Under the pieces are notes generated by a model, which did no database searches, was not told the origin of the DNA, and was given only the letters and a program-made list of their open reading frames with translations. Below are positions 3,445 through 17,720 of a stretch of DNA of 64,000 nt, in pieces. Position numbers and translations under genes: made by a program. Location: contig CAMELR010000005.1 in assembly GCA_945923775.1 (NCBI GenBank), forward strand, positions 1-64,000. The letters are read 5' to 3'. Origin of the DNA: an uncultured Clostridia bacterium (GTDB lineage Bacteria > Bacillota > Clostridia > Oscillospirales > Ruminococcaceae). How positions within the stretch are numbered: the first letter of the stretch is position 1; every line of letters starts with the position of its first letter.

Positions 3445-3555
3445 CGTGACGATGGTGACGGTCGTGACGATACTTTAGGTAGTGGGAGGAGGTGTCTATT
3501 TTATCGTCACCATCGTCACAACCGTCGCGCATAGTGAAAAATGAAAGGAATATTT

Positions 3556-3846
3556 ATGGATAACACAGAACCAATTGGGCGCTTCGGAACAGAGTGGCAA
3601 AAGTTCATGCAAGAAAACTATCCAGACATTATTACTGCTGAGCTTGTCGGAGATAAATTCGATGAACTCGCAAGGATAATCGATGCAGAAGCGTGGGAAA
3701 TGTGGGAACTGCTCCGCAGGCAGTATGCAGAAAAGAATCCCCGTCCGAAAACCTTTACCGAAATAGCGGCATGGGAGAAAACACGCAGTCTGTACGTTGA
3801 ACACGAGGTTATGGAGCAAGTTGTCCTTTGCTGCCGCAGCTGTTGA
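3556..3846 (+). CDS. tnpV: TnpV-like transposon-encoded protein
   Basis: A 96-aa protein clearly related to the one at 6291-6596 (shared GRxGTxWQxFMQENYP, WELLR-QYA, WEKTR-LYVxHEVMEQVVL). TnpV proteins are small, of unknown function, and occur in mobilizable elements of Firmicutes. The ATG at 3556 is preferred over 3541 because AAAGGA precedes it by 6 bp. The C-terminus (CCRSC) diverges from the usual RFRE ending, so the last codons may be altered by a rearrangement. Confidence 0.65.
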   Translation: MDNTEPIGRFGTEWQKFMQENYPDIITAELVGDKFDELARIIDAEAWEMWELLRRQYAEKNPRPKTFTEIAAWEKTRSLYVEHEVMEQVVLCCRSC

Positions 3847-4124
3847 GTTTCTTTCAGAAATTCTTTTTTCAGTTTTGCAAAAACATTGCAAACCCAAGAT
3901 TGCAAAACCTCTGTATATAAAATTCTTGCAATGTTGCAACCTTGAATTTGCTTTCAGCAAATACGGCTGTCGTTTCGGCAGCAAACGCACGGATAATGAT
4001 TGCATTATCCGAATCCCCCGCCCCTCGGAGAGCCCCGTACCTGTGATAGCTTGCTGTCACAGGTATTAAGGGGTTACCAATGGCAGAGCCGTTGGTAAAA
4101 ATACCGCAGCGAAAGGAGAAATTA
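3847..4124 (+). other. Non-coding region upstream of mob with TTGCAA array and oriT-like hairpin
   Basis: Five copies of the palindromic hexamer TTGCAA lie at 3875, 3886, 3900, 3926 and 3934. An inverted repeat ACCTGTGA (4039-4046) / TCACAGGT (4057-4064) lies shortly before the mob start and resembles the hairpin element of MobV-type transfer origins. No convincing gene. Confidence 0.45.
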
Positions 4125-5290
4125 GTGAAAGCGAAAACCATATCTCATTGTCAGGGCAAGGGCAGCCTTTCCCATAACAACCGCGCATTTAAGCCGAAAA
4201 ATGTAGACAGCTCCCGCAGCAGTCAGAATGTCACCTTTGTAAATATGTCAATAACTGAGGCTTATGATAAATGCTTTTCGGAAGCAGTCGAGCGTTACAA
4301 CGCAAAGCAGAAACGAGCCGACCGCCGTATCAAGGACGGGTATTTCCGCTACGCATTCTCCCACGCACCCAGCAATAACGTGATTACCGCAGCAGATAAG
4401 CGCAAAAGCTTTTACGAAGATGTTGTGCAGATAGGCGACAGGAGCGATACGGGAATAGGCACAGCTGACGCAGAAACTGCCGCCAAATGTCTTACCGAAT
4501 ATATGCAGGGGTTTTCCGAGCGCAACCCGAACTTCTTTGTTTTCAATGCTGTTCTTCATGTTGACGAAGCTACGCCGCACCTGCATATCGACTATATCCC
4601 TATCGGGCATTACAAGCGGGGTGTTGACACGCAGAATGGTTTGGCGCAGGCTCTTAAAGAAATGGGTTACGGTGAGGGCGAGAACACCATAAATCGTTGG
4701 AGGCTGGCGGAGCGTGATGTTCTCGCTGAAATATGCCGCAAGCACGAAATAGAAATTGCCGAAACGCAAAAAGGCAGAGGTTACACCTACACCGTTGAGC
4801 AGTACAAGCAACACAAGGACACGATATCCGCCCTTGAACAGCAAAAGGCGGAGCTTTCAGATAATCTGGACGAGCTGAAACTGCTGAACGACGCCGCCGA
4901 GAGCGAGGGCATAGAAAGCACAAAACTGCCTTTCAACAAAAGAATGGTTTCCGAGGAGGAGTTCAGCAAACTTTAAGCGGCGAAAAAGACAGCAGCTGTG
5001 AGAGAAACTACTCTTGACCACCGAGAAAAAATCATAGCTGAAAAAGAAACTGCAATATCCCAAAGAGAAGCGGAGCTTTCCGAAAAGCTGACGGACGCAT
5101 AAAATTCCTATATGAAGTATAACGAGCTTGCTGACGAACTGCTTGATGACAGCAAAGCATATCATAAACTTCTTCCGAGATATAAGGTGCTTGAAGAACT
5201 CTGCCAAACAGCAGAGAGCCAGCTTAGCAAAGCCAAAGAGAACATAACAGCCGCCGTAAGGCATATAACCGATATTGCAAAGCTGCTGAA
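4125..5290 (+). pseudogene. mobV: MobV-family relaxase, truncated and interrupted
   Basis: MobV (Mob_Pre) relaxases nick the transfer origin of small mobilizable elements. TISHCQGKGSLSHNNR opens the protein and the metal-binding motif H-x-D-E-x-x-P-H-L-H is present as HVDEATPHLH. The GTG at 4125 is chosen because AAAGGAG lies 8 bp upstream. A TAA at 4974-4976 ends the frame after 283 aa. The same frame continues (AAKKTAAVRETTLDHREKII) with a second TAA at 5100-5102 and further coiled-coil-like sequence. At about 5290 it passes into integrase sequence without a frame change. The relaxase domain is intact but the tail is broken, so the gene is probably decaying. Confidence 0.75.
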
Positions 5291-5912
5291 TCAGTTGTAT
5301 GAGTATGCTATGAAGTACGAATACTGCAACAAGGACTATTCGCAGTATGTCGATATACTGAAATACAAGAACAGGAATCCTAACCGCACCGACCGCAGTC
5401 CGTTCAGCAGTGAGGAAATCGAAGCGCTTTGGGTGCAGAAGAATAATCGATACGCACAGATCGTCCTTATGCTGATATACAGCGGTGTTCGTGTATCGGA
5501 ACTGCTTGACCTCAAACGGGAAAATAAACATATTGACGAGCATTACTTCAATGTCGTTGAAAGCAAGACTGAAAACGGAATACGCATAGTTCCCATAGCA
5601 GACAAAACCTACCCGTTTTTCAGGAAGTGGTATGACGATGACTGTGAGTACCTGCTGCACACGCCAGAGGGCGCTCATTTTGACTATCGAAACTACTATG
5701 ATTCTTACTGGACGCCTGTTATGGAGCTTATCGGGTGCTCCCACAAGCCACACGATACTCGGCACACCTGCATTTCCATGCTTACTGAAAAGGAAGTATC
5801 TCCCACGATGATAAAGAAAATCGTTGGGCACTCCGGCGCTATGTCGCTGACGGAGAGAGTTTACACTCATGTCAATGTGCAGGAACTGTTGAGGGCTATA
5901 AACAGGATATGA
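5112..5912 (+). pseudogene. Tyrosine integrase catalytic domain fused to relaxase tail
   Basis: The first 60 or so residues are the tail of the preceding relaxase. From LYEYAMKYEYCNKDYSQYV onwards the sequence is that of a Tn916-type integrase: the end of the core-binding domain, then the catalytic domain with R (SGVRVSELL), K (ESKTENG), H-x-x-R (HDTRH), H (GHSG) and Y (VYTHVN). The arm-binding and most of the core-binding domain are missing. A deletion has therefore joined mob to int in frame. All catalytic residues are present, but without DNA-binding arms it is unlikely to work. Confidence 0.75.
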
Positions 5913-6202: not shown

Positions 6203-6225
6203 TAAAGACCAAATAAAGACCAAGT
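6203..6225 (+). repeat. Left 23-bp arm-type direct repeat
   Basis: A perfect 23-bp match to 17698-17720 in the same orientation. Internally it is two units, TAAAGACCAAA and TAAAGACCAAG, with an 11-bp period. This fits integrase arm-binding sites at the two ends of element 2. Confidence 0.7.
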
Positions 6226-6290
6226 AAACCTGTTGTGACAACCCTCTGCAAATAGCTTTTATCAAATCATTATTATTGGAGGTTATCATT

Positions 6291-6596
6291 ATGAGCAATA
6301 GCATAATCAAGGAAGAAGAACTCACAATCGGTCGCTGGGGCACTGCTTGGCAGCGGTTTATGCAGGAGAACTACCCTGCCGAAGCCGAGGAACTGATGAA
6401 GACCGCTCGCTGGGACGAACTTGCTCTTGAGATTGACCGAGAAGCGTACAGCCTTTGGGAGTTGCTCCGTAAGCAGTACGCAAAGGCAAATTCCCGCCCG
6501 ACCACCTTTATGGAAACGATGAAATGGGAGAAAACACGAGGCTTATATGTTGACCACGAGGTTATGGAGCAGGTTGTGCTGCGGTTCAGGGAATGA
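6291..6596 (+). CDS. tnpV: TnpV-like transposon-encoded protein
   Basis: A 101-aa homologue of the protein at 3556-3846 with the intact ending VVLRFRE. The ATG at 6291 has GGAGG 8 bp upstream and is preferred to the one at 6276. It is the first gene of element 2, next to the left arm repeat. Function is unknown in the family; it is a marker of Tn4451-like and related mobilizable elements. Confidence 0.75.
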   Translation: MSNSIIKEEELTIGRWGTAWQRFMQENYPAEAEELMKTARWDELALEIDREAYSLWELLRKQYAKANSRPTTFMETMKWEKTRGLYVDHEVMEQVVLRFRE

Positions 6597-6867: not shown

Positions 6868-8412
6868 TTACACCCTCTGAATCTTCGCTTTAAGAGCTGC
6901 AATTTCGGCGTCTATTGCATTTATCCGAGCCAGCGCTTCTTTTTTCTTCCGTGCGCCCTCGCCGAAAATCTTTTTCTTGAATTCTTCGTAAATTTGGCTC
7001 TGGCTTGCCCTTTCGTTGTTGAGCTGAGCGATTTGAGCGTTGATTGCATTGTTGTTGGCAATCGCTTGCTCACGGGCTTTCTTGGCTTCGTTTCTCTTAA
7101 AGCCGCCGGGGAGAGTGTAGTAGGTTTTCTTCATTTTGAGTTCTTTTTCCAAAGTGCCTTCAGCACAAAGACCTCTGGCTAAATCAGGACTTCCTATGCT
7201 CATTACATGGCATGCTAAACTGAAAGCCTTGCCCAGAGTTTCGCCTGCTTCTACGGGACTATATATTTTATCGCCTGTAAATGCCGACTTGTACTTTTCA
7301 AACAATGTATCGGGATCAAGCAAAACTAAAATGTCATCCAAAAGCGTTCGGTCAATTTTATTTGACGAATTGCCGTCCTGTTTATTCAATGCTATAGAGG
7401 TAGATTTCTCAAAAACATAACAATTTTGTTCAGCTGCTTTCTTGTGCAATGTCAACAATCCATTCTTTTTTCCGATAATATTGGGGAGTTTACCGGTAGA
7501 ATAAGCGAGGTCATAAGAAAGCTCTTCAATAATGCTCATATCCGAGGATATGCCGTCCTTAGAGAGTATTATTCCAACAGCGACTTGAAGTTCGTCCGGA
7601 GTCATTGTGGTCTTGCCTGCAAACGCTGCCGTCAACACCTCCTTTATATACTCCTCACCGTAATGAATATAACTACCATCAATATAAATAGAGCTATCCA
7701 TTGCGTCGCGTATCAGCGAAAGTTCACTTTGTTTCAGAAATTTAATTCTTGTATCGGTAACCTGCGTTTTGTTTTGGCTTACGGTAGCCGTTGTGTTTTT
7801 ATCACTGCTTTTGGACTTTTGACAGTCAATATATCCGTAAGCATTTGCAAATGTGCAAATATCCTCAAAATCATACTTTGAAATATCCCCCGAGCCTCTT
7901 CTTGTAAGGTATTTAGCAATATCATTAAGCAACTGATTTACATAGATTTCATCATCGATAGGGAACGAGGTGATATTGTTTTCCAAACAGTATTTGTACA
8001 GTAATAAGGCTTGTTCTCTTAAGCTTGCGAATTTGTTGCTTCTGGCATTGATTTTTGAAATAATCGCAGCACAGGAACCCTTCGGCGGTTCCAGCTTGTT
8101 GACTACCGAAGCGGAGGGCTGCCATTCAATGTTGCAGTAGCGCTGCTTGTACCTGATAAGCGTTGATTCGTATTTTGCGGGGTTTGCCAGGGCTCTGTCA
8201 ATGTCATTTTCCGTAAAGTCAAGCATAAGGTATCCTAAGTCCGACCCGCAGGCTCCACAGTGATAATACCCCTTCTTTTTGCCCGCTGCGCCTGCTACCG
8301 CTCCCACAGGACCGAAGAAAATAGTTCCAGCAACCGCCTTGCCAACGCTGAAACCCTCGTTCTTTGTGCCATAAGCGACACTCTTGCTTCCGCAAGCCGC
8401 ACATCTTGACAT
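6868..8412 (-). CDS. Zinc-ribbon protein with glycine-rich segment, unknown function
   Basis: A 514-aa protein of unrecognised family. It begins with a split zinc ribbon, C4-x2-C7 and C52-x2-C55, whose two halves are separated by a glycine/alanine-rich hydrophobic stretch (FSVGKAVAGTIFFGPVGAVA). That stretch could be a glycine-zipper membrane hairpin. The middle (about 100-430) is mixed helical with no motif I know. The last 85 residues are charged and helical, likely coiled coil, rich in Ala, Glu and Lys. GGAGGA precedes the ATG. It diverges from the XRE regulator at 8574 and is followed by the coupled small HTH gene. Its place among cargo of a mobilizable element suggests an accessory, possibly defence, role, but that is inference. 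Confidence 0.5.
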   Translation of the reverse strand: MSRCAACGSKSVAYGTKNEGFSVGKAVAGTIFFGPVGAVAGAAGKKKGYYHCGACGSDLGYLMLDFTENDIDRALANPAKYESTLIRYKQRYCNIEWQPSASVVNKLEPPKGSCAAIISKINARSNKFASLREQALLLYKYCLENNITSFPIDDEIYVNQLLNDIAKYLTRRGSGDISKYDFEDICTFANAYGYIDCQKSKSSDKNTTATVSQNKTQVTDTRIKFLKQSELSLIRDAMDSSIYIDGSYIHYGEEYIKEVLTAAFAGKTTMTPDELQVAVGIILSKDGISSDMSIIEELSYDLAYSTGKLPNIIGKKNGLLTLHKKAAEQNCYVFEKSTSIALNKQDGNSSNKIDRTLLDDILVLLDPDTLFEKYKSAFTGDKIYSPVEAGETLGKAFSLACHVMSIGSPDLARGLCAEGTLEKELKMKKTYYTLPGGFKRNEAKKAREQAIANNNAINAQIAQLNNERASQSQIYEEFKKKIFGEGARKKKEALARINAIDAEIAALKAKIQRV

Positions 8413-8573
8413 AAAATTATCCTCCGTTATAGTATAATAGGCAGAATATTACAAAAATCTACCTTTAGTTGTATTATATCACGACGTATAGTTGTTGTCA
8501 AGACCAAAACGTTTTTTTAATTTATGAGCAATATCTGATACAATGTAATTATAAACTAAATAAGGTGGTTGCT

Positions 8574-8909
8574 ATGGTTAAGAACTTTCGGTTGTTAAGA
8601 GAAGAAGCGGGATTATCTCAACAAAAGCTCGCGGATATGCTGAACATTTCCCAACAAGCTATATTCAAGTACGAAAAGACCGCCAACGAACCGGATATTG
8701 CCACGCTTATAAGGCTTGCCGGAATATTTGACGTCACCGTTGATTATCTGATAGGAAACACCGAAATAAGAGCACGTAATGCCAAATGCAGCGCGGTAAT
8801 GCTGACCGAAAGCGAAGCGGAACATATCCGCAAATGGCGGAGCCTGCCTGCGCCGATACAGGATAATATCGACGAGCTTATCTCAAACATTACTACAAAA
8901 AGAGAATAA
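8574..8909 (+). CDS. XRE-family repressor
   Basis: A 111-aa protein with a classic N-terminal HTH: FRLLREEAGLSQQKLADML, then ISQQAIFKYE and DYLIG, typical of phage-repressor-like XRE proteins. The ATG at 8574 has AAGGTGG upstream; the longer open frame from 8469 has no matching site. Divergent from the zinc-ribbon gene across 161 bp, so it probably controls that cargo and its own expression. Confidence 0.8.
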   Translation: MVKNFRLLREEAGLSQQKLADMLNISQQAIFKYEKTANEPDIATLIRLAGIFDVTVDYLIGNTEIRARNAKCSAVMLTESEAEHIRKWRSLPAPIQDNIDELISNITTKRE

Positions 8910-9445
8910 AGAAAACGCCCTGTTAATTCAGAGCGTTTTAATATTATTCGATATATCGCAGCATCAACATAGGGTTGAAGCACAGTTTCCGGTGCACTAC
9001 AATAAACGGAAGATCATTCTGAAAGCGACTCTCCATCGTTATTCGTGATTGCGAAATAATTGCATTCTTTTGCAGTTCCTTTTGTTCTATTATGAATATA
9101 ACGGAGGGAGTCATGAAATGAAAATGCTTAAGCGACTTATCTCCAATACCATTTAGTTCAGTCCTATTCCCTCGCGGTTGTATAGAGCGCAGTGAATATG
9201 GAAGGGCTTAATCCAACTATAAAAACCGAACGAAAAAATTCTATTGGGCGGAGCAATGCAGATTACAGCATTAATCATATTCTTTGATTATGATTTCATT
9301 TGCTAACTCATAAAAACAGACAATTCGCTAAATTCCACAAGAAAATATGTTGCTTTTTTGGAAGGTTTGTGGTATACTATATAAGGCGTAATATGATGTT
9401 GTACATACTCATGCTTATTGATAACCTATTTAATGGAGGGCGCAT
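8910..9445 (+). other. Long intergenic region with terminator, vestigial repA start and promoter
   Basis: The XRE terminator is AAAACGC (8912-8918) pairing with GCGTTTT (8933-8939). At 9067-9156 lies a decayed copy of the leader and first codons of repA: the block TTTTGCAGTTCCTTTTGT and an AGGGAG site match 13250-13296, and the short frame 9118-9156 reads MKMLKRLISNTI then stops, against MKILERLNPT in repA. At 9350-9378 is the promoter for the ATPase gene. No full gene. Confidence 0.6.
9350..9378 (+). promoter_or_regulatory. Extended -10 promoter of ATPase-nuclease pair
   Basis: TTGCTT (9350-9355), 17-bp spacer, TATACT (9373-9378) preceded by TGG (extended -10). Confidence 0.6.
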
Positions 9446-10921
9446 ATGAATATTAAATTAGAGAATATCGGTATTATTAAAAACTCCAATATCCAATTAG
9501 ATGGGCTTACTGTAATTACAGGACAGAACAACTCGGGTAAAACAACCGTAGGAAAAGTAATATATTCATTGGTAGATGCAGTTTCTAACTTATCTGCCAA
9601 AGTGGAAAATGATAGAATTAAGTATATCGCTGATGTATTAAATGATATTCAGAATGATTTCGAAATATTTAGACTATCCCGACGTTTCTCAGGCGAGAAT
9701 GAACCTTCAATTTTTTCCAAAGGCTCTGCTATCGATTCGTTGATATATAGCTTCCATATGACTCCTAGAGGATTTTCTTTTCCTGATGAATGGGATAGTA
9801 TTGAAGTATTTTCCCATTCGTTAAGAGACGAGTTAAATGAGTTTAATGTTGATTTAATTGATGAAAATACTTCATTTTTCAAATACTATAGTAGATTTTC
9901 AGTGAGACGCGAGAATGTTGACGGGGTAAAAAACAGAATAAAAATCCAAATTGATAAAGCTGTTTCTATGCTTGATAAAATGTTCGAGGCTTTAGAAAGA
10001 GATCCCGACCTAATTGATTATGCGCGCGAAAGCATTAATCAAACCCTTAGGGTGGAATTTTCGGATCAAATTCAGCCAATAGCAGTTGATGTTGAAAAAT
10101 CTAGAATTGAAGTATCAGATAATGACACAATTATGTTCGCATTTGATATTAATAACAACAATCTCGTCAACAATGGTCGCCCTGTTTTTTCCGATGTCAC
10201 GTATAAAAGAGCTTATTTTATTGATAATCCTTTTGTGTTAGATTCCATGCCATATCGAAAGATGTATGTATCACATGACTTAGATAATAGTACAATATTG
10301 GATACCAGCAGGATTCTTCCTCATGAAATTAAGTTGAATTCTGTATTAAAAAGCAGAAAAGCAACCACTGTCTTTGAAGAAACTGTCATTAACCATGGTC
10401 TAACTGAAATCAAAGAGAAAATTGATGAGGTTTTATCTGGGGAATTTGAATTCAACTCGGATGGTGAATTCTATGTTAAAGATGGGAAGAAACTGCACTT
10501 AACCAATTTAGCTACAGGTTCAAAAATGTTTTCCATATTAAAATTGTTAGTGGACAAAGGCGAAGTTGATGAAAACACTCTGCTGGTATTGGATGAACCG
10601 GAAGCTCATCTTCACCCAAGTTGGCAGAATAAATTTGCCGAAATAATTGTTTTACTGGTCAAATATCTTAATACTGGGGTGCTTCTTACAAGCCATAGTC
10701 CGAATTTTGTTTTAGCAATTGATGCATATATGCGTAAGTATGATATTATTGATAAGACGAACTTCTATCAAACAAACCACTTTGATAACGGCTTAGTTGA
10801 GTACGTTAATGTCAATGATGACTTGGGACTTATATACGATGATTTCATGCAATATTTATCAGAAGTTAAAGCATTAAGAGATCACTACTATTATCATTTG
10901 GGTGAAAAACATGATGACTAA
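9446..10921 (+). CDS. AAA/ABC-type ATPase (OLD/RecF-like fold), putative defence protein
   Basis: A 491-aa single-chain ATPase of the AAA_15/AAA_21 type. Walker A is GQNNSGKTT (26-34). A long helical insertion of roughly 50-330 is likely coiled coil in part. An ABC-signature-like LATGSKMFSI follows, then Walker B LLVLDEPEAHLHP (379-391) and LLTSHSP with the switch histidine (413-419). The LDEPEAHLHP form is typical of PtuA, OLD and RecF-type defence and repair ATPases. No TOPRIM or HNH domain follows, unlike OLD or PtuAB. The next gene overlaps by 11 bp and encodes a nuclease-like partner. Both are distinctly AT-rich compared with the backbone, a sign of separate acquisition. GGAGGG precedes the ATG. 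Confidence 0.75.
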   Translation: MNIKLENIGIIKNSNIQLDGLTVITGQNNSGKTTVGKVIYSLVDAVSNLSAKVENDRIKYIADVLNDIQNDFEIFRLSRRFSGENEPSIFSKGSAIDSLIYSFHMTPRGFSFPDEWDSIEVFSHSLRDELNEFNVDLIDENTSFFKYYSRFSVRRENVDGVKNRIKIQIDKAVSMLDKMFEALERDPDLIDYARESINQTLRVEFSDQIQPIAVDVEKSRIEVSDNDTIMFAFDINNNNLVNNGRPVFSDVTYKRAYFIDNPFVLDSMPYRKMYVSHDLDNSTILDTSRILPHEIKLNSVLKSRKATTVFEETVINHGLTEIKEKIDEVLSGEFEFNSDGEFYVKDGKKLHLTNLATGSKMFSILKLLVDKGEVDENTLLVLDEPEAHLHPSWQNKFAEIIVLLVKYLNTGVLLTSHSPNFVLAIDAYMRKYDIIDKTNFYQTNHFDNGLVEYVNVNDDLGLIYDDFMQYLSEVKALRDHYYYHLGEKHDD

Positions 10922-11612
10922 AAACATCTCTATGTATGCACAGAATAACTGGTTATCTGATAGGTATTATAATACAATATCAAGAATTTCGGATCCAGGA
11001 AACGGTCAATCACTAGTTCAAAGTTCAAAAAAGATATTTTGGTTTGATAATATTTCTAGCGATTTATATCCTGGTAATCATAATTTACCTACTTCAGCTG
11101 ATGGAGTCATCATTACTGACCGAATGATTTGCTTTGTTGAATTCAAAACAGGATTTAAGAAAAAGATAACCAAACAGAATTTTGATGCTGATAAAGTAAC
11201 CTGCGAACATATTCATGACATATGTTATGAGTATCTAGATTTGTTTATTAAAAATCAAAGAACTGAAACTGAGCAACTAATTTGTTCTATTCGTGATAAG
11301 GCTATAGAAAGCTATATCACACTCGAAAAAAAGTTACTTCCAATTTGTGCATTAGTAGGTGATCAAAAGTACAAACTGGTTTTTATTGCAGTAATTGATG
11401 GCAATGGGGAAGATGATATGGAAGCGACATTAGGTGAATTGTGCTCAAAAGAGCCATCTCATGAAAATTGTTTCAATGATGTTCGCAAAGCATTAAAACG
11501 TTGCGCTAATCAAAAAGATGCTGCCGGACAGGACTATTATTATGATGAAATAAAGGTAATGTCACCTGCCGAGTTTCTTTCATTTATCAACACTTGCAAT
11601 CTTTCTACATAA
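10911..11612 (+). CDS. Putative PD-(D/E)xK nuclease-like partner of the ATPase
   Basis: A 233-aa protein of unknown family. D64 in SADGVI, then E77-F-K79 in CFVEFKTG, fit the D...ExK core of PD-(D/E)xK nucleases: predicted strand, Asp, strand, E-x-K. The rest is mixed helical with several Cys but no zinc pattern. The ATG at 10911 overlaps the ATPase stop (ATGATGACTAA), implying translational coupling. The 3' end overlaps the convergent gene by 8 bp. If the motif is real, the pair would be an ATPase-nuclease effector module such as those protecting against phages. The assignment rests on a short motif only. Confidence 0.5.
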   Translation: MMTKNISMYAQNNWLSDRYYNTISRISDPGNGQSLVQSSKKIFWFDNISSDLYPGNHNLPTSADGVIITDRMICFVEFKTGFKKKITKQNFDADKVTCEHIHDICYEYLDLFIKNQRTETEQLICSIRDKAIESYITLEKKLLPICALVGDQKYKLVFIAVIDGNGEDDMEATLGELCSKEPSHENCFNDVRKALKRCANQKDAAGQDYYYDEIKVMSPAEFLSFINTCNLST

Positions 11613-12633
11613 TAGAGTTATTAGTATTAGCCGCCCTTCCCTCTATCGTAGCCCTCAGACTCTTAACCTTTTCGATATACGCATAAATCTCCTTTTCAAG
11701 CTCCTCGCTGCCGCTTTCTTCGTATTCCCGAAGCATAGCCGCAGAGGTGCGTATAAACTCGTCGTGAAGCGCCTTGTATTCGGCTTTGTCGGCGTCGCAA
11801 AGACGTTCCCAAGCCTTATTCTTATGCATAAAATTCTCAAAGCTATACTTAATCCGCTGGCGTAATTTGAAAACTCCCTCGGAGCATTTCTCCCTGTAAA
11901 TTGCCTTGCTGTTCTTCTTGCGTAAAACCTTGCACTCCTCGCAATACTGCGTATTCTTCGACTTTGCAAGGAAGAAGCTGCCGCACAGCTTGCACTGAAC
12001 GCAGAACACCTTTCTGCTCATCATATAGCGAGAATACTCCGTCAACAGCGCCGACATCTCGCTGCAATTAAACCGAATAACACTGCAAATCTCCGTGTCC
12101 TGCGGAGATTTTTTCTTTTTCAGCGTGGTGAATGTGTCGGTAATCAGCGTTTCCACGTCATCACGGAACTGCTCTCCCAACTCCGCACGGTCAGGCTGTT
12201 TCAGCCCCAAGCCCAACCGAGCGTTCATATATAAAACGGTGGCGACCTTGTACCATTTAGAGATAGTCCTTGCAAGCAGGCGTACAGTAACGCTTTTGTC
12301 TGCCTTGAAAAAATAGTCGAGGCTGTTCAGCGTTTCAGCAATTCTGCGGCTGTTGGAGTTCTTGTCGCGAAGGTTAGCGTAAAGCCTGTCCGAAAGTTCC
12401 TGAAGCTTCTCCACGTCCGACAACGACTTGAACACATCAGCTGCCAAAGTTCCGAGCGGCTGTTCACGAAGATATATGTCCAAATCCTTGACGGAGAGGT
12501 TTGGGCTGTCAATTTTTTTCAGAACCTTTTTGATGATTTTTGTCGAGCCGCCGATTAGCGTTTCGGTGCTGTCCGTGAGCAGAAGAACCGCCTCATAGTC
12601 GTATTTCACATCAAATTTCTTCTCAAAATCCAT
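11605..12633 (-). CDS. Zinc-finger protein of mobile elements (DUF6076-like)
   Basis: A 342-aa protein. The N-terminal two-thirds is helical. Around residues 212-235 is a C-x2-C ... C-x2-C zinc finger (CKLCGSFFLA ... YCEEC), followed by a basic helix and a charged C-terminus. This is the layout of proteins annotated as DUF6076 or CGNR-like in Firmicute mobile elements; I am unsure of the exact family. A GAGGTGG site precedes the ATG. It converges with the nuclease-like gene and diverges from the Xis-like gene across an intergenic region with repeated ACAAGGATA motifs. Confidence 0.5.
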   Translation of the reverse strand: MDFEKKFDVKYDYEAVLLLTDSTETLIGGSTKIIKKVLKKIDSPNLSVKDLDIYLREQPLGTLAADVFKSLSDVEKLQELSDRLYANLRDKNSNSRRIAETLNSLDYFFKADKSVTVRLLARTISKWYKVATVLYMNARLGLGLKQPDRAELGEQFRDDVETLITDTFTTLKKKKSPQDTEICSVIRFNCSEMSALLTEYSRYMMSRKVFCVQCKLCGSFFLAKSKNTQYCEECKVLRKKNSKAIYREKCSEGVFKLRQRIKYSFENFMHKNKAWERLCDADKAEYKALHDEFIRTSAAMLREYEESGSEELEKEIYAYIEKVKSLRATIEGRAANTNNSIM

Positions 12634-12955
12634 AGAAAACCACCTCGCTTACAAGGATAATGTACTAACAAAAGCGCCAAATAGGGCTGAAACAGCCAAA
12701 TATCCACCTATAATTATAGCATAATACAGCCGATTGTGACAGAATACAACGGTTTTACAAGGATAAAACACAAAAGCACACCAAACCGCATTATAAAAGC
12801 ATTTTCCTGTTTCTAAAATTTGGTTGTGCCGAAATACTATCCTTGTATAGTATATCACAACCTATTGCATTTGTCAATCCCGAATGGTAGAATATTGTCA
12901 AGGGACGAAGCTTCACCCGACATTCCGAACAACACCATTCAAGGAGGTAACTTTT
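12634..12955. promoter_or_regulatory. Divergent regulatory region with three ACAAGGATA motifs
   Basis: ACAAGGATA occurs at 12651-12659 and 12757-12765, and inverted (TATCCTTGT) at 12838-12846, the last inside an ATACTA/TAGTAT inverted repeat that overlaps a likely -10 region. No other ORF of note. Likely binding sites of an element-encoded regulator. Confidence 0.45.
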
Positions 12956-13237
12956 ATGACAAACGCAAAGAGAGAAGAAATTATTGCGACGATGAGCAGC
13001 TTGCTCGAACAGCTTGTAAAGAACGACCCGCCGAAATCCGAAACAACCGCCCCGCCCGAAAAGGTTGAAATGCTGACGATAAAGGAGTGTACCGAGGCGG
13101 TCAAGGGTCTGAACGAGTACACGGTTCGGCAGCTTATCGCCCGTAAGGAAATCCCCTCAATCAGAACGGGACAAGGCAAGCGCGGGAAGATACTTGTTCC
13201 GAAAGCGGCTCTGCTTCGCTACTTTGTCGGCGCATAA
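12956..13237 (+). CDS. Excisionase-like protein of element 2
   Basis: A 93-aa protein. After an acidic, Pro-rich N-terminus it has LTIKECTEAVKGLNEYTVRQ, then LIARKEIPSIRTG and RGKILVPKAALLRYF, the winged-helix excisionase fold (HTH_17/MerR-like). AAGGAGG lies 7 bp before the ATG at 12956. It sits between regulator sites and repA, and is the likely directionality factor for the integrase at 16530. Confidence 0.65.
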   Translation: MTNAKREEIIATMSSLLEQLVKNDPPKSETTAPPEKVEMLTIKECTEAVKGLNEYTVRQLIARKEIPSIRTGQGKRGKILVPKAALLRYFVGA

Positions 13238-13300
13238 TGTGTGCAGCTTTTTGCAGTTCCTTTTGTGCTATGATGAACAAAAACGAAGGGAGCAAGGATA

Positions 13301-14230
13301 ATGAAGATACTTGAACGGCTCAACCCCACGAACACAGGCTCGTACAACCGCCCCATTGCTCACGCTTTGGGGCTGGGTGCGGCGGTGGTTTACTCGGCAC
13401 TTATCTCAAAGTACGAATATTATTACAAGCACAATATGCTCGATGAGGAAGGTTTCTTCTACTCAACGATTGCGGATTTGCAGGAAAGCACCTCTATGGG
13501 CAAATGCCAACAGAGCAACGCAATCAAGGTGCTGACCGATGAAGGCTTGGTGGAAGTTTGCAGGCGCGGTATGCCGGCAAAAAGATATTTTCGTGTCCGT
13601 GATGATGTGGAATTGCTCGACAAGTTTCTCAAACAGGGTAAAGAAATAATCACCGAGCTCAACCCTATTGCACAGTTGGACGATAACCGTCAAACTTGTT
13701 GTACGGAAACCGAACAACAAGTCGGCGGTTTTTCCGACAACAAGTTGGCGCAAAACGAGCCTTATACTATAAATCCTAATATAATAAAATCTAAAGAGAA
13801 TAATCCTAATCTATCAATCCACGGCGGCGCCGATATGATTGATATGATGGATAATTCAGCCGAGATTGTTTCCGTTGAGGAGCGAGATAATTACCTTGAA
13901 CTTATCCGTGAGAATATCGAGTACGACTGCTTCTCGGAGGGCGAACAGGAAAAGGTTGACGAGCTGGTGGAGATTATGCTTGATGTAGTGTGTTCGAGTA
14001 AAAGCGTTATTCGGGTTCACGGCGAGGACTTGCCACACGAGGTGGTTAAGAGCCGCTTCCTGAAACTCAATCACGAGCATATCGAATATGTGCTGTTATC
14101 GTTGAAGCGAAACACAAGCGACGTGAAGAACATCAGAGCCTATCTGATAACCACGCTTTATAACGCTCCGACCACCATTGACAGTTACTACACCGCTCTC
14201 GTTAACCACGATATGTACGGGAGTGCGTGA
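13301..14230 (+). CDS. repA: RepA-type replication initiator
   Basis: A 309-aa protein. The N-terminal winged helix (LNPTNTGSYNRPIAHALG, GAAVVYSALISKYEYY, then FFYSTIADLQESTSMG and LTDEGLVEVCRRG) resembles RepA_N / replication initiator proteins. The C-terminal 100 residues (helical, ending with NVKNIRAYLITTLYNAP) resemble the DnaD-like DUF6017 domain. It would let the excised element replicate, which stabilises mobilizable elements during transfer. Leader has AGGGAG before the ATG and an extended -10-like TGCTATGAT. A broken copy of this leader and start lies at 9067-9156. Confidence 0.7.
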   Translation: MKILERLNPTNTGSYNRPIAHALGLGAAVVYSALISKYEYYYKHNMLDEEGFFYSTIADLQESTSMGKCQQSNAIKVLTDEGLVEVCRRGMPAKRYFRVRDDVELLDKFLKQGKEIITELNPIAQLDDNRQTCCTETEQQVGGFSDNKLAQNEPYTINPNIIKSKENNPNLSIHGGADMIDMMDNSAEIVSVEERDNYLELIRENIEYDCFSEGEQEKVDELVEIMLDVVCSSKSVIRVHGEDLPHEVVKSRFLKLNHEHIEYVLLSLKRNTSDVKNIRAYLITTLYNAPTTIDSYYTALVNHDMYGSA

Positions 14231-14719
14231 CAGCTCGGAGAGAATTTTTCTTTCAGATTTGAAAAGAAAAATTTTATCGGGCTGGGCGAGTTTTCGCTCC
14301 TGTCCGCAGAGGTCGAGTGAGAGAGGTTTGGGGATTTTACCCCATACTCTCGGAACAGTCGTTTGAGAGCGATTTACGCTTTTACCTTGTTTCACGAGGG
14401 AGTTAGTTGAGTGGGGGTTGAGATTTTATCTCAAATCTCGGAGCGATAAGCAAAAAGGGGTTTGGGGATTTTTCCCCAACTCAATGTGATAATGACGGGC
14501 GGAGCTTGTCACTATCACTATTGAGTATAGCAACAACGACTAAAACCGAAAAATATGCTCGATTTCTTAAAAATGTTTCAACGGGCATTTTGAAGATAAA
14601 TTGAAAAACTGCTTTTAAGCAGCTGCCGGCGTTTATGAGATAAATTCAAAAACGGCTTTTCAAGAGCAGGCACGGCTGACAGGATAAATTTAAAAAACAG
14701 GCGAAAGGAGATGTATGCT
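14231..14719 (+). other. Non-coding region between repA and mob: terminator, oriT candidates, iterons
   Basis: AATTTTTCTTT (14243-14253) pairs perfectly with AAAGAAAAATT (14263-14273), a likely repA terminator. TTGGGGA (14462-14468) pairs with TCCCCAA (14473-14479). GTGATAATGAC (14486-14496) pairs with GTCACTATCAC (14508-14518) with one mismatch and is the best oriT hairpin candidate for the MobV relaxase. GATAAATT followed by an A-rich run recurs at 14595, 14639 and 14683, each 44 bp apart. No gene. Confidence 0.5.
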
Positions 14720-16438
14720 ATGAGCGAGGTAAAATCAAATGGACTGTCGGTTTCGTTCCGTGTGGACAGCGGTTATCTCGACCACAACAACCGAGTTATC
14801 ACCGCCCACAATGTTGATGTTTCAAGAACGGCAGATAACATTACCTACACCAAAATCGACTTGCGGGATTTCTATCAGCAGGTCTTTGGCGAGGCGATTA
14901 TGGAATACAATCTGAAGCAAGGACGACCTGACCGAGAAATTCACGATTACTACGAGCAAGTCAAAAAATCGAAAAAGGTAAAACTGTTCTATGAGGTGGT
15001 TGTGCAGTTCGGGGATTTGCACGACTGTGGACTTGATACACAGAATTGGGAAACGGCGAAAGCTATGCTTGATGAGTATATGAGAGAATTTGAAAGAAAA
15101 AATCCGAACCTAAAGGTTTTCAATGCGGTAATGCACCTTGATGAGAGTACGCCACATCTGCACATCGACTTTGTTCCCGTGGCTCACAAGGGACAGCGAG
15201 GTATGTCGCTGAAAAACTCAATGAGCGGGGCGCTTCGGGAACAGGGGTTTTCCTCGTCAAACAAAATGCAGAACGAGTGGACAGCTTGGTCGGAAAGCGA
15301 GCGTTCGGTTATGGAACAGATTTTGCTGAAACACGGTTTGCGGCGAGAGGATAAAAACGTCCACCGACAGCATTTGCCTGTTGAGGAATATAAGAGGGCT
15401 GCACAGGAAGCGGAGAGTATCAGAAAAATCAACGCCCACATTAACGAACTGAAAAAGAAGCCCGCCGAGGAACTGACCTTGGAAGAAGCTGCCCTTATCA
15501 ATAATCAGAACGATGTTATGCGTGAAAAGGTTACGGAGTTGCGACAGCAGTTTGAGGATATGAGCAAGAAAGCAGGAGCAGATTTCGTCCCTGTTAATAT
15601 ATACAGCCCCGACAAATTACAATACATAGCAGACGGGTTGGCTCGTGCGAAAATACCTTGCGTTGCCGAAAGCAACACGCTTTATGTTCCCGATTACGCT
15701 TTGGGGACGGCAAAAGCGATTGCGTCCCACTACAAGCCTGACGAGAAAGCGCCGACTATCCGTGAGCAGATTAAGCTGGACATTGACAGGCTGGTGTATA
15801 GGACGGAAACCCTTGACGATTTGCTCTATCGGTTGCAGGAGCGTGGTTATGAGGTCAAGGAAGGCAAGTATATATCTGTGAAGCACCCGTCTGCGGAGCG
15901 GTTTATAAGACTGAAAACTCTCGGTGACGAGTATCTACCCAAAAATCTTGAACAGCGCATAGCTGAAAAGGATATGTTTACCGACCGTGTGCGGTATGAA
16001 GTGCAGAACGCAAACCCGATTGAGAAGCGGTTTCACATTACTGTTCTCAATGTTGCGAATGCTGTCAAGCAGTTCCGACTTGACCCGAAGAAAACGGATA
16101 AACGTCGGTACTATTTCTTCCAAAATGACGCTCGGATTAACTACCTATCTGAACAGCTTGTAGCAATCGCCGAGTTTGGCTTGACCTCCCGTGACAGCAT
16201 TTATGCAAAGGCGCAGGAGCTTCAGTGGACGATACACAAAATGCGTTCAGAGGGCGATAACCCCGAAGAACAGGAAAATGCCTTAAAGCGTATTAACACG
16301 CTGATTAAGGCTTATGAGGAGATTGTTGAGGGCAACTACATAGACAATCTTATAAAGGCACAACAGGAAGAAAAGCAGGCTGCACAGCAGAATGCAAATG
16401 CACACAAAGATACAACGAAAAAGGCACAGAAAAGATAA
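14720..16438 (+). CDS. mobV: MobV-family relaxase
   Basis: A 572-aa relaxase that would nick oriT and lead the element's DNA into a recipient through a helper conjugation system. The metal-coordinating motif HLDESTPHLH lies at residues 139-148. The N-terminus (SVSFRVDSGYLDHNNR) matches the family's HNNR signature. The C-terminal half is charged and helical, ending in a Gln/Ala/Lys-rich tail. The ATG at 14720 is chosen because GGAG at 14707-14710 is 9 bp away; it would touch the ATG at 14711. The hairpin at 14486-14518 upstream is a plausible target. Confidence 0.85.
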   Translation: MSEVKSNGLSVSFRVDSGYLDHNNRVITAHNVDVSRTADNITYTKIDLRDFYQQVFGEAIMEYNLKQGRPDREIHDYYEQVKKSKKVKLFYEVVVQFGDLHDCGLDTQNWETAKAMLDEYMREFERKNPNLKVFNAVMHLDESTPHLHIDFVPVAHKGQRGMSLKNSMSGALREQGFSSSNKMQNEWTAWSESERSVMEQILLKHGLRREDKNVHRQHLPVEEYKRAAQEAESIRKINAHINELKKKPAEELTLEEAALINNQNDVMREKVTELRQQFEDMSKKAGADFVPVNIYSPDKLQYIADGLARAKIPCVAESNTLYVPDYALGTAKAIASHYKPDEKAPTIREQIKLDIDRLVYRTETLDDLLYRLQERGYEVKEGKYISVKHPSAERFIRLKTLGDEYLPKNLEQRIAEKDMFTDRVRYEVQNANPIEKRFHITVLNVANAVKQFRLDPKKTDKRRYYFFQNDARINYLSEQLVAIAEFGLTSRDSIYAKAQELQWTIHKMRSEGDNPEEQENALKRINTLIKAYEEIVEGNYIDNLIKAQQEEKQAAQQNANAHKDTTKKAQKR

Positions 16439-16529
16439 CATACCTCTTGACAAATCGCGCTTTAAAGTGGTAAAATAGAATTGCAGAGGGTATGTCATAA
16501 AATCTATGATATTGAAGGAGAATATTCTT

Positions 16530-17666
16530 ATGGCTACCATTACCAAACGAGGGGAAACCTTCAGAATTAAGGTGTCATTGGGCTATGACGCCAACGGCAA
16601 ACAGATTGTCAAGTCCACCACATTCACTCCCCCAACGGGAGTAACGCCCAAGAAAGCGGAAAAGCTGGCGAACGAATACGCTTTCGAGTTTGAGCGACAT
16701 TGCAAGGGCTACGCGCAGCTCAACGAAAATATGCGCTTCTCGGAGCTTGCGGAATGGTACTTTGAAAACTACGCTCCTGTGGAACTGAAAGAGGGAACGC
16801 TCTACAACTACAAAAGCGCATACAAAAACCACATTGCTCCTGTTTTCGGGAACGTGAAGGTCAAGGATATAAACACTCCAAGGCTGACGCAGTTTGTACA
16901 GTCTCTGAAAGTTAAGCCCGAAACGGTGCGGAAGATTTATGTTGTCGTACAGAGCATTTTTCACAGGGGCGTGGAGCAGGGTTTCATCAGAGATACGCCG
17001 TGCAGGAATGTCATTCTTCCGAAGAACAAGAGCAAAAAGAAAAAGCCTGTCCTTGACGAAGAACAGACAAAGCGGTTTATGGAGCTTCTTGAAACAAAGA
17101 GCTGTGACCTTGATGTTAAGCGAATGATTAAGGTGCTGCTTTACACGGGTCTGCGGTGCGGTGAAATGCTCGCTCTTTCGTGGGAGGATATCGACTTTGA
17201 TGGAATGACAATCTCGGTAAACCACAACCTTGCGGATGTCGGTGGTAAACACTGGCTGACAACCCCCAAAACCGAAAGCAGTATCCGTACAATAGGAATG
17301 AGCAAGGCGCTTGCGGATATTTTCCGTGAGCAGAAAGCGTATCAAGAGCGGTTGGCGGGAGGGCTCGGCGATAGCTTTGCTCACCCCGAAATGGTGTTCA
17401 CCTCCGCTAACGGCAACTACCGTGACAGGTCGGCGCTACGAACGTCGTTCAAACGATTTCTGAAAGGCACGGAGTTTGAATTCCTTACCTTGCACCAACT
17501 CCGTCATTGCAACGCAACCTTACTTCTGAACAGCGGCGTTGACCTGAAAATCGTATCGGAACACCTCGGACATTGCGACATAGGCGTAACGGCGAATATC
17601 TATGCCGATGTTCTCAAAAGCACCAAAGCAAAGGTTGCAGACCTTGTGTCGCTTAAATTAGCATAA
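16530..17666 (+). CDS. int: Tyrosine integrase of element 2
   Basis: A 378-aa Tn916/lambda-type site-specific recombinase. Residues 1-60 form the arm-binding domain, about 68-160 the SAM-like core-binding domain, and 170-378 the catalytic domain. Catalytic residues are all visible: R209 (TGLRCGE), K247 (TPKTESS), H322-x-x-R325 (HQLR), H348 (LGHCD) and nucleophile Y358. AAGGAG lies 8 bp before the ATG at 16530. The gene ends 31 bp before the right arm repeat and about 105 bp before rpsI, which points to the rpsI 3' end as its integration site. Confidence 0.9.
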   Translation: MATITKRGETFRIKVSLGYDANGKQIVKSTTFTPPTGVTPKKAEKLANEYAFEFERHCKGYAQLNENMRFSELAEWYFENYAPVELKEGTLYNYKSAYKNHIAPVFGNVKVKDINTPRLTQFVQSLKVKPETVRKIYVVVQSIFHRGVEQGFIRDTPCRNVILPKNKSKKKKPVLDEEQTKRFMELLETKSCDLDVKRMIKVLLYTGLRCGEMLALSWEDIDFDGMTISVNHNLADVGGKHWLTTPKTESSIRTIGMSKALADIFREQKAYQERLAGGLGDSFAHPEMVFTSANGNYRDRSALRTSFKRFLKGTEFEFLTLHQLRHCNATLLLNSGVDLKIVSEHLGHCDIGVTANIYADVLKSTKAKVADLVSLKLA

Positions 17667-17668
17667 AA

Positions 17669-17698
17669 ATATCCTCCCCGAATACTCGGAGAGGATAT
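17669..17698 (+). terminator. Hairpin after integrase
   Basis: ATATCCTC (17669-17676) pairs with GAGGATAT (17691-17698). The right arm overlaps the first base of the arm-type repeat. Confidence 0.6.
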
Positions 17699-17720
17699 AA
17701 AGACCAAATAAAGACCAAGT
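17698..17720 (+). repeat. Right 23-bp arm-type direct repeat
   Basis: Identical to 6203-6225 in the same orientation, with the same 11-bp internal period. Confidence 0.7.

Follow-up and report, generated by a model that had tools for sequence, protein, structure and literature searches.

The DNA considered here is a stretch of 64,000 nucleotides (nt) from an uncultured Clostridia bacterium (Ruminococcaceae; assembly GCA_945923775.1, contig CAMELR010000005.1, positions 1-64,000 of the forward strand), referred to throughout as the window. Two overlapping genes of the window were examined, the first encoding an OLD-type ATP-binding cassette (ABC) ATPase and the second a small nuclease of the PD-(D/E)xK type, and were compared with known phage-defence systems. 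The two genes, in window coordinates, are as follows.

9446..10921, + strand: gene of the OLD-type ABC ATPase, an open reading frame (ORF) of 491 amino acids (aa)
10911..11612, + strand: gene of the PD-(D/E)xK-type nuclease, an ORF of 233 aa from the ATG at 10911

The genes overlap by 11 nt, from the nuclease ATG at 10911 to the ATPase stop at 10921, as a preliminary description of this DNA had read; an alternative nuclease start, the GTG at 10902, would give a protein of 236 aa. The low G + C content that the same description had seen relative to the surrounding element is also found, with values of 0.335-0.382 in 1-kb bins over 9-12 kb versus 0.40-0.50 in the other bins overlapping the element. 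The description had further credited the pair with its own promoter, for which the following candidate can be read (related loci are numbered with the prefix L).

9350..9378, + strand: possible promoter TTGCTT-17-TATACT with TG preceding the -10 element, read by eye; similar in L012

A promoter of its own is plausible for the pair, because this motif and a GGAGG at 9435-9439, upstream of the ATPase gene, are readable in the sequence and the nearest relative, L012, carries TTGATT-17-TATACT at the equivalent position. The + strand sites listed by a consensus promoter scan, however, include none ahead of the ATPase gene, and the scan gave no enrichment over shuffles (11 found versus 12.3 expected).

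In the ATPase, the Walker A motif GQNNSGKTT at residues 26-34 and the LDEPEAHLHP motif (residues 382-391), which contains Walker B D383-E384, were both located as first described, together with a signature-like G358-x-K360, the H-loop histidine H417 and a C-terminal helix (461-488). Residues G26, N28, G31, K32, T34, G358, K360, D383, E384, H390 and H417 are among those invariant in all 34 aligned ATPases. The protein matches AAA_15 (1.5e-20) and AAA_21 (4.5e-16) above the Pfam cut-off, and 129 PADLOC families match it at E <= 1, among them PD-T4-4_A (7.3e-23), HEC-02A (1.4e-22), PDC-M47A (2.5e-22) and AriA (1.4e-19). The solved folds nearest to its predicted model, which has a predicted local distance difference test (pLDDT) score of 84.8, are SMC heads, PtuA and Rad50; AriA and OLD chains do not occur among the 50 rows listed for it in the VIA comparison, a result that does not test their absence.

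The nuclease site comprises D64, E77-F78-K79 and K130. The D64...E77-x-K79 motif noted in the preliminary description stands well above chance: these five residues are invariant in 46/46 nucleases of alignment A3, in which S27 and D46 are conserved in 45, and the pattern D...E-[FLAY]-K is present in 77/83 ORFs that follow a related ATPase against 119 of 1031 other ORFs (34/406 of the other ORFs of 140-300 aa). The 83 partners divide into 46 in alignment A3, 29 in the more divergent alignment A4 and eight outside both. In A4 only M1 and the aspartate (D63) are invariant, so that the ExK part appears to be looser, or misaligned, in these 29 partners. The preliminary description had tied its assignment to a restriction-endonuclease fold, and the predicted model (pLDDT 84.9, predicted template-modelling score 0.83) bears some resemblance to such enzymes: with 995 chains aligned by VIA-align, the top 20 rows are restriction-type nucleases representing eight different proteins, with modest scores. 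Most of the structural neighbours are DNA enzymes (Can2, PspGI, Bse634I, EcoO109I and HamA). No match was obtained above the cut-off in Pfam or NCBIfam or at E <= 1 in PADLOC or PHROG, and nothing was found at E <= 0.001 when the fold was compared with predicted viral proteins (best 0.092). Matches to Prp protease (NCBIfam, 0.058), BSU11850 (Protein Data Bank, E 0.1) and PylC (profile E 1.3) are at chance level, and Pfam matches of single family members were set aside on the same grounds. Cas4_II matches 3/46 partners (best 0.0036), which is tentatively read as the common PD-(D/E)xK core. The nuclease homologues at two loci, L051 (6400-7695) and L058 (2899-4131), are roughly double the normal size, with 432 and 411 aa, and PADLOC gives no match for them at E <= 0.01.

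Between ExK and K130 the window nuclease carries a 50-residue loop (residues 80-129, window 11148-11297). In A3 this distance is 50 in the window, L012, L013 and L014, 60 in L019 and 11-25 in the other 41 rows. Both C98 and C105 are present in exactly the five long-loop rows, a cysteine at C146 likewise occurs in 5/46 rows, and L003, which lies outside A3, has the same long loop and cysteines. A metal or redox site formed by the loop cysteines with C146 is possible.

Relatives were collected by their ATPase, so that the gene downstream tests the pairing without bias toward the nuclease. At E <= 1e-15 the ATPase has a match in 6/295 related genomes, its own included; matches were also obtained in five plasmid and five phage records, of which four out of ten were used for locus reading, and the loci from genome_contigs are the best 80 of 351 confirmed, from 589 matched stretches. 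According to the record labels, these relatives belong to Bacillota, Bacteroidota, Pseudomonadota, Campylobacterota and Spirochaetota, among other phyla, and to some archaea. A scan of viral_contigs with the ATPase gave nothing, and a single-sequence search with the nuclease gave no relative in genome_contigs, viral_contigs, phages or plasmids and, among 100 related genomes, retrieved the window protein alone.

At 83 of the 90 ATPase loci, the window included, the ATPase is followed by an ORF of 100 aa or more. Of the remaining seven, L032, L035 and L064 end 36, 294 and 79 bases past the ATPase, L056, L066 and L078 hold only fragments that match the nuclease profile, and L077 holds none; at L056 (6275-6638) the ATPase ORF is intact and the nuclease is present only as two ORF fragments. 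Outside the window, 81 of 82 nucleases start no more than 30 nt from the ATPase stop, and 51 overlap the ATPase. Profiles from which whole sequence clusters had been held out (at least 35% identity over 80 aa) recover 80/83 downstream ORFs at E <= 1e-3, the window nuclease at 1.3e-18, and miss those of L011, L083 (0.0017) and L086. The same profiles match only two of the 1031 other ORFs, in L066 and L078, both of them nuclease-gene fragments behind an ATPase. Even a profile that excluded the window clade together with the five relatives closest to it found the five clade members, at 5e-13 to 2e-16 (47-59 bits); none of 100 shuffled controls scored above 5.7 bits.

The preliminary description had staked its reading on homologues of the second gene occurring with the ATPase, and they mostly adjoin it. 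A search from the nuclease side gave seven matches in 6/391 genomes of the bacterium's class, five of which, the window included, are next to an ATPase; the two others are L112, a frame without the usual N-terminus, and L111, which covers only model positions 110-189 of 194. Immediate neighbours of the relatives gave strong matches to PARIS, Thoeris, PglX, DRT and methyltransferase or restriction-modification models, in a scan of 101 of 128 selected ORFs, from which ORFs of at least 900 aa, a number of very short ones and all syntenic Flavobacterium copies except L022 were excluded.

The pair had been proposed as an undescribed defence system, and in this respect the proposal did not hold: the same two-gene architecture is known as WonAB, PD-T4-4, the 'OLD-ABC ATPase + novel REase' operon and the PADLOC candidate HEC-02. 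The relationship is hard to see because the nuclease subfamily is divergent and without a match above cut-off in the four family libraries. What is supported is the pairing of an ATPase with a nuclease of the PD-(D/E)xK type, its carriage as cargo and a probable role in phage defence.

The WonAB account (PMC12137116) describes, from the WASA-1 prophage of Vibrio cholerae, an OLD-type ABC ATPase and a variant PD-(D/E)xK nuclease that are both required for protection. Phage defence was shown experimentally and proceeds by abortive infection with translation arrest while the genomic DNA stays intact; overproduction of WonB is toxic only with active WonA, and in the authors' model WonB sits on C-terminal extensions of WonA (PMC12137116). 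According to the same authors, WonAB, the 'OLD-ABC ATPase + novel REase' operon and PD-T4-4 all belong to a larger family, as yet uncharacterised, in which ATPase sensors are combined with nuclease effectors (PMC12137116). Like WonAB as described there, the present pair is a two-gene operon of an OLD-type ABC ATPase and a small PD-(D/E)xK nuclease that is carried by a mobile element; it has intact Walker A, Walker B with the catalytic glutamate and H-loop histidine in the ATPase, and D64/E77/K79 in the partner. Furthermore, the catalytic glutamate and the H-loop histidine are 33 residues apart in both (E384/H417 here, E300/H333 in WonA), and the essential K71 of WonB has a similarly placed counterpart in K79 (PMC12137116). 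Unlike WonB, which is reported at 16.1 kDa, the nuclease here has 233 aa with the 50-residue loop after ExK; a further difference is that the hosts of WonAB are reported to be mainly Gram-negative (PMC12137116). The 'OLD-ABC ATPase + novel REase' operon, known from an in silico survey, has the same two predicted activities, and its modelled example is from Anaerovibrio lipolyticus (PMC12137116, PMC12409358); its homologues are given for 0.96% of genomes and cover all WonAB hits (PMC12137116). The likeness to WonAB is one of architecture, motifs and spacing as described, and that to the survey operon one of predicted activities.

For HEC-02 (PADLOC-DB 2.0.0), a name that, like the PDC names, comes from an embedding screen (PMC12988326), the match of the ATPase to HEC-02A is weakly specific because the scores of other OLD-type ATPase models are almost as good. 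PADLOC favours the connection by way of relatives, one HEC-02B model matching 6/46 aligned partners at E <= 0.1 (best 1.6e-6); the window nuclease itself has no HEC-02B match at E <= 1 in PADLOC, and the literature search found no description of the function of HEC-02. PD-T4-4, found on an integrative element in Escherichia coli, shares the ATPase superfamily and is listed with a PD(D/E)XK domain (PMC9519451, PMC10952713). The reading of the pair as PD-T4-4, and not as a sister family, is very improbable, even though PD-T4-4_A is the top PADLOC match of the ATPase: a Vibrio phage pair, L011, which served as a positive control and is PD-T4-4 proper, scores far higher (A 6.4e-185, B 6.5e-18), the window nuclease has no match to PD-T4-4_B at E <= 1 and no detectable homology to its nuclease, and the L011 nuclease is missed by profiles from which L011 was left out.

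An OLD/Rad50-type ABC ATPase is also common to PARIS (AriA/AriB), Septu and retron PtuA, OLD and Gabija. Their partner nucleases are of the Toprim (AriB, OLD, GajA) or HNH (PtuB) type (in part from PMC10952713 and PMC10568477), in contrast to the D...ExK site here. PARIS and Septu were rejected as identities, since the window partner has no PADLOC match at E <= 1, to AriB and the HNH nuclease PtuB included, and has the D...ExK site instead; nor does the partner fit membership of the Gabija or OLD families. Shedu (SduA) is not known to have an ABC ATPase partner gene.

The pair is most likely a divergent member of the recently described WonAB-type ATPase-nuclease class. It is real and probably a functional defence pair. 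In the reverse direction, a profile from the ten sequences of the window clade and the five relatives closest to it finds 48/73 other partners at E <= 1e-3; that it misses 25/73 makes the assignment slightly less certain. With this taken into account, we consider it likely that the two genes form a phage-defence system that belongs with WonAB, HEC-02 and the 'OLD-ABC ATPase + novel REase' operon and is the cargo of an integrative mobilisable element. The features of this element are as follows.

6203..6225, + strand: left 23-nt direct repeat, putative attachment (att) site, perfect repeat
8571..8909, + strand: XRE-type helix-turn-helix regulator upstream of the pair (Pfam HTH_3, 9.6e-15)
11605..12633, - strand: 342-aa backbone gene, 83% identical in the related genome G021; cargo and backbone meet at its 3' end
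13301..14230, + strand: replication-type protein (Pfam DUF6017, 2.7e-42; RepA_N, 0.0029, below the cut-off)
14711..16438, + strand: Mob_Pre relaxase (Pfam Mob_Pre, 4.2e-16)
16506..17666, + strand: tyrosine integrase (Pfam Phage_integrase, 1.1e-28)
17698..17720, + strand: right 23-nt direct repeat, putative att site, perfect repeat, starting 31 bp past the integrase gene

The 23-nt repeat has exactly two copies in the 2.97-Mb assembly, and a weak match to HTH_17 (2.2e-5, below the cut-off) also lies between them. From these features we infer an 11.5-kb integrative mobilisable element as the carrier. Relatives of the 342-aa gene are present in 9/150 related genomes, its own included. In G021 the backbone matching window 11651-16603 is conserved at 83-86% DNA identity, and the cargo side of the 342-aa gene of this sister element holds DruE (E = 0, 1873 bits) and DruD (2.4e-16), not the pair; three more distant copies (L103-L105) have other genes there. 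This one sister element with its Druantia genes is the whole evidence for a defence slot. It corresponds to L102 1109-10196, where an upstream ORF of 942 aa weakly matches LmuB (1.2e-5).

Two genes that overlap, lie on a mobile element, may have a promoter of their own and include a nuclease plausible as a toxin could also form a toxin-antitoxin addiction module that stabilises the element, with the ATPase as the antitoxin and no phage trigger. This is unlikely: an invariant ATPase active site would not be needed by an antitoxin that simply sequesters its toxin, the sister element has Druantia genes rather than a toxin-antitoxin pair at the same place, and the reported dependence of WonB toxicity on active WonA excludes simple sequestration in WonAB (PMC12137116). 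A Rad50/SMC-like pair for DNA repair or element maintenance, serving the mobile element's own recombination, was also considered and is judged quite unlikely.

Several further features of the region were observed. A 48-nt direct repeat (79%; 9061-9108 and 13242-13289) flanks the cargo and the 342-aa gene just upstream of the replication-type gene, and may be a trace of cargo gain or a regulator site. The - strand gene 6868-8412 encodes a 514-aa element protein with cysteine pairs near the N-terminus and no Pfam match above the cut-off, which could be further cargo. A second element adjoins at window 3541-5912, with a relaxase-like ORF (4080-4976, read by eye) and an integrase (5112-5912), and its small ORF 3541-3846 resembles 6276-6596 (141-nt repeat, 73% identity).

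As a member of the WonAB-type class, the pair would most likely bring about abortive infection by means of a docked nuclease under the control of an ATPase dimer. Conservation together with analogy suggests that the ATPase would dimerise via composite ATP sites and that the small nuclease would be held near the ATPase C-terminal helices. By analogy alone, a phage trigger would alter the state of the ATPase and license the nuclease, which would then cut nucleic acid with the D64/E77/K79 metal site and stop the infected cell. RNA (tRNA or rRNA) would be the first candidate target, because WonAB is reported to block translation without degrading the chromosome (PMC12137116). The same class with another substrate, in which the nuclease cuts phage or plasmid DNA directly and no RNA-mediated abortive infection takes place, is a substantial though lesser possibility; the predominance of DNA enzymes among the structural neighbours speaks for it, whereas the intact genomic DNA and arrested translation reported for WonAB speak against it (PMC12137116), and the fold does not reveal the substrate.

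The comparison of related loci also bears on how the two genes evolve together. Across 75 loci, ATPase and nuclease identities are correlated (Mantel r 0.726, with 0/999 permutations as high), so that swaps of the nuclease are exceptions. The clearest pattern is at one chromosomal site in Flavobacterium, where L022, L023, L031, L043 and L055 share the same two flanking genes (77-97% and 83-96% identical; compared stretches L022 4110-7575 and L031 4094-7602, for example). Between L031 and the other four loci, the ATPases share 60-75% identity but the nucleases only 20-24%, although the L031 nuclease is still recovered as a family member by the held-out profiles. DNA similarity to L031 stops 77 (L022), 71 (L023), 77 (L055) and 24 bp (L043) before the ATPase stop; in each case it returns close to where the nuclease gene ends. 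Within the ATPase end, residues 17-26 from the terminus have identities of 0.20-0.40 in the four L031 pairs versus 0.70-1.00 in five pairs among the other loci, and the last eight residues 0.00-0.25 versus 0.62-0.88, whereas residues 9-16 from the end differ little (0.62-0.75 versus 0.62-0.88). The exchanged unit therein looks like the nuclease with up to the last ~26 ATPase codons, with an imperfect edge. Rapid divergence without recombination may also account for this Flavobacterium pattern.

A second, less clean case of exchange is possible between the window and L012, in which the ATPases are 78% identical and the nucleases 43%. Their DNA similarity (78%) covers window 9330-10952 and L012 4892-6507 and ends ~30 bp past the ATPase stop, inside the nuclease gene, with similarity already reduced over the last 16 residues of the ATPase. 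At 38-44% identity, the window nuclease is about as close to those of L003, L013 and L014, whose ATPases are only 48-49% identical to that of the window, as it is to that of L012. An exchange of the ATPase end together with the nuclease would fit the WonAB model, which places WonB on the C-terminal extensions of WonA (PMC12137116). Whole-family statistics give mild support to docking at the ATPase C-terminal helix: when the ATPase is divided into 17 segments, the partial correlation with nuclease identity peaks at 451-480 (0.34), closely followed by 391-420 (0.29) and 1-30 (0.28), with seven of the 17 exceeding all 199 permutations and segment 481-491 resting on 21 pairs. We regard the chances as evenly balanced that, across the class, the nuclease and the ATPase end with its C-terminal helix form an exchangeable effector cassette that is replaced by recombination while the sensor body and the flanks stay. 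No nuclease swap in this family is described in the titles and abstract openings of the listed papers on module swapping, and no claim is made that it is unpublished.

The pair adds a nuclease subfamily that is not recognised above the cut-off by Pfam, PADLOC, NCBIfam or PHROG, and defence counts relying on such models would miss it. The class, whose studied example WonAB dates from a 2025 publication, is in addition seen here to be carried by a mobilisable element, at the place where the sister element has Druantia genes. If the swap pattern is true, an infection sensor would keep its recognition part and change its weapon, so that one sensor may be re-armed with a different nuclease, acting on another substrate or resistant to a phage inhibitor, and the pattern would also suggest that docking, as predicted by the published WonAB model (PMC12137116), takes place at the C-terminal helix of the ATPase.

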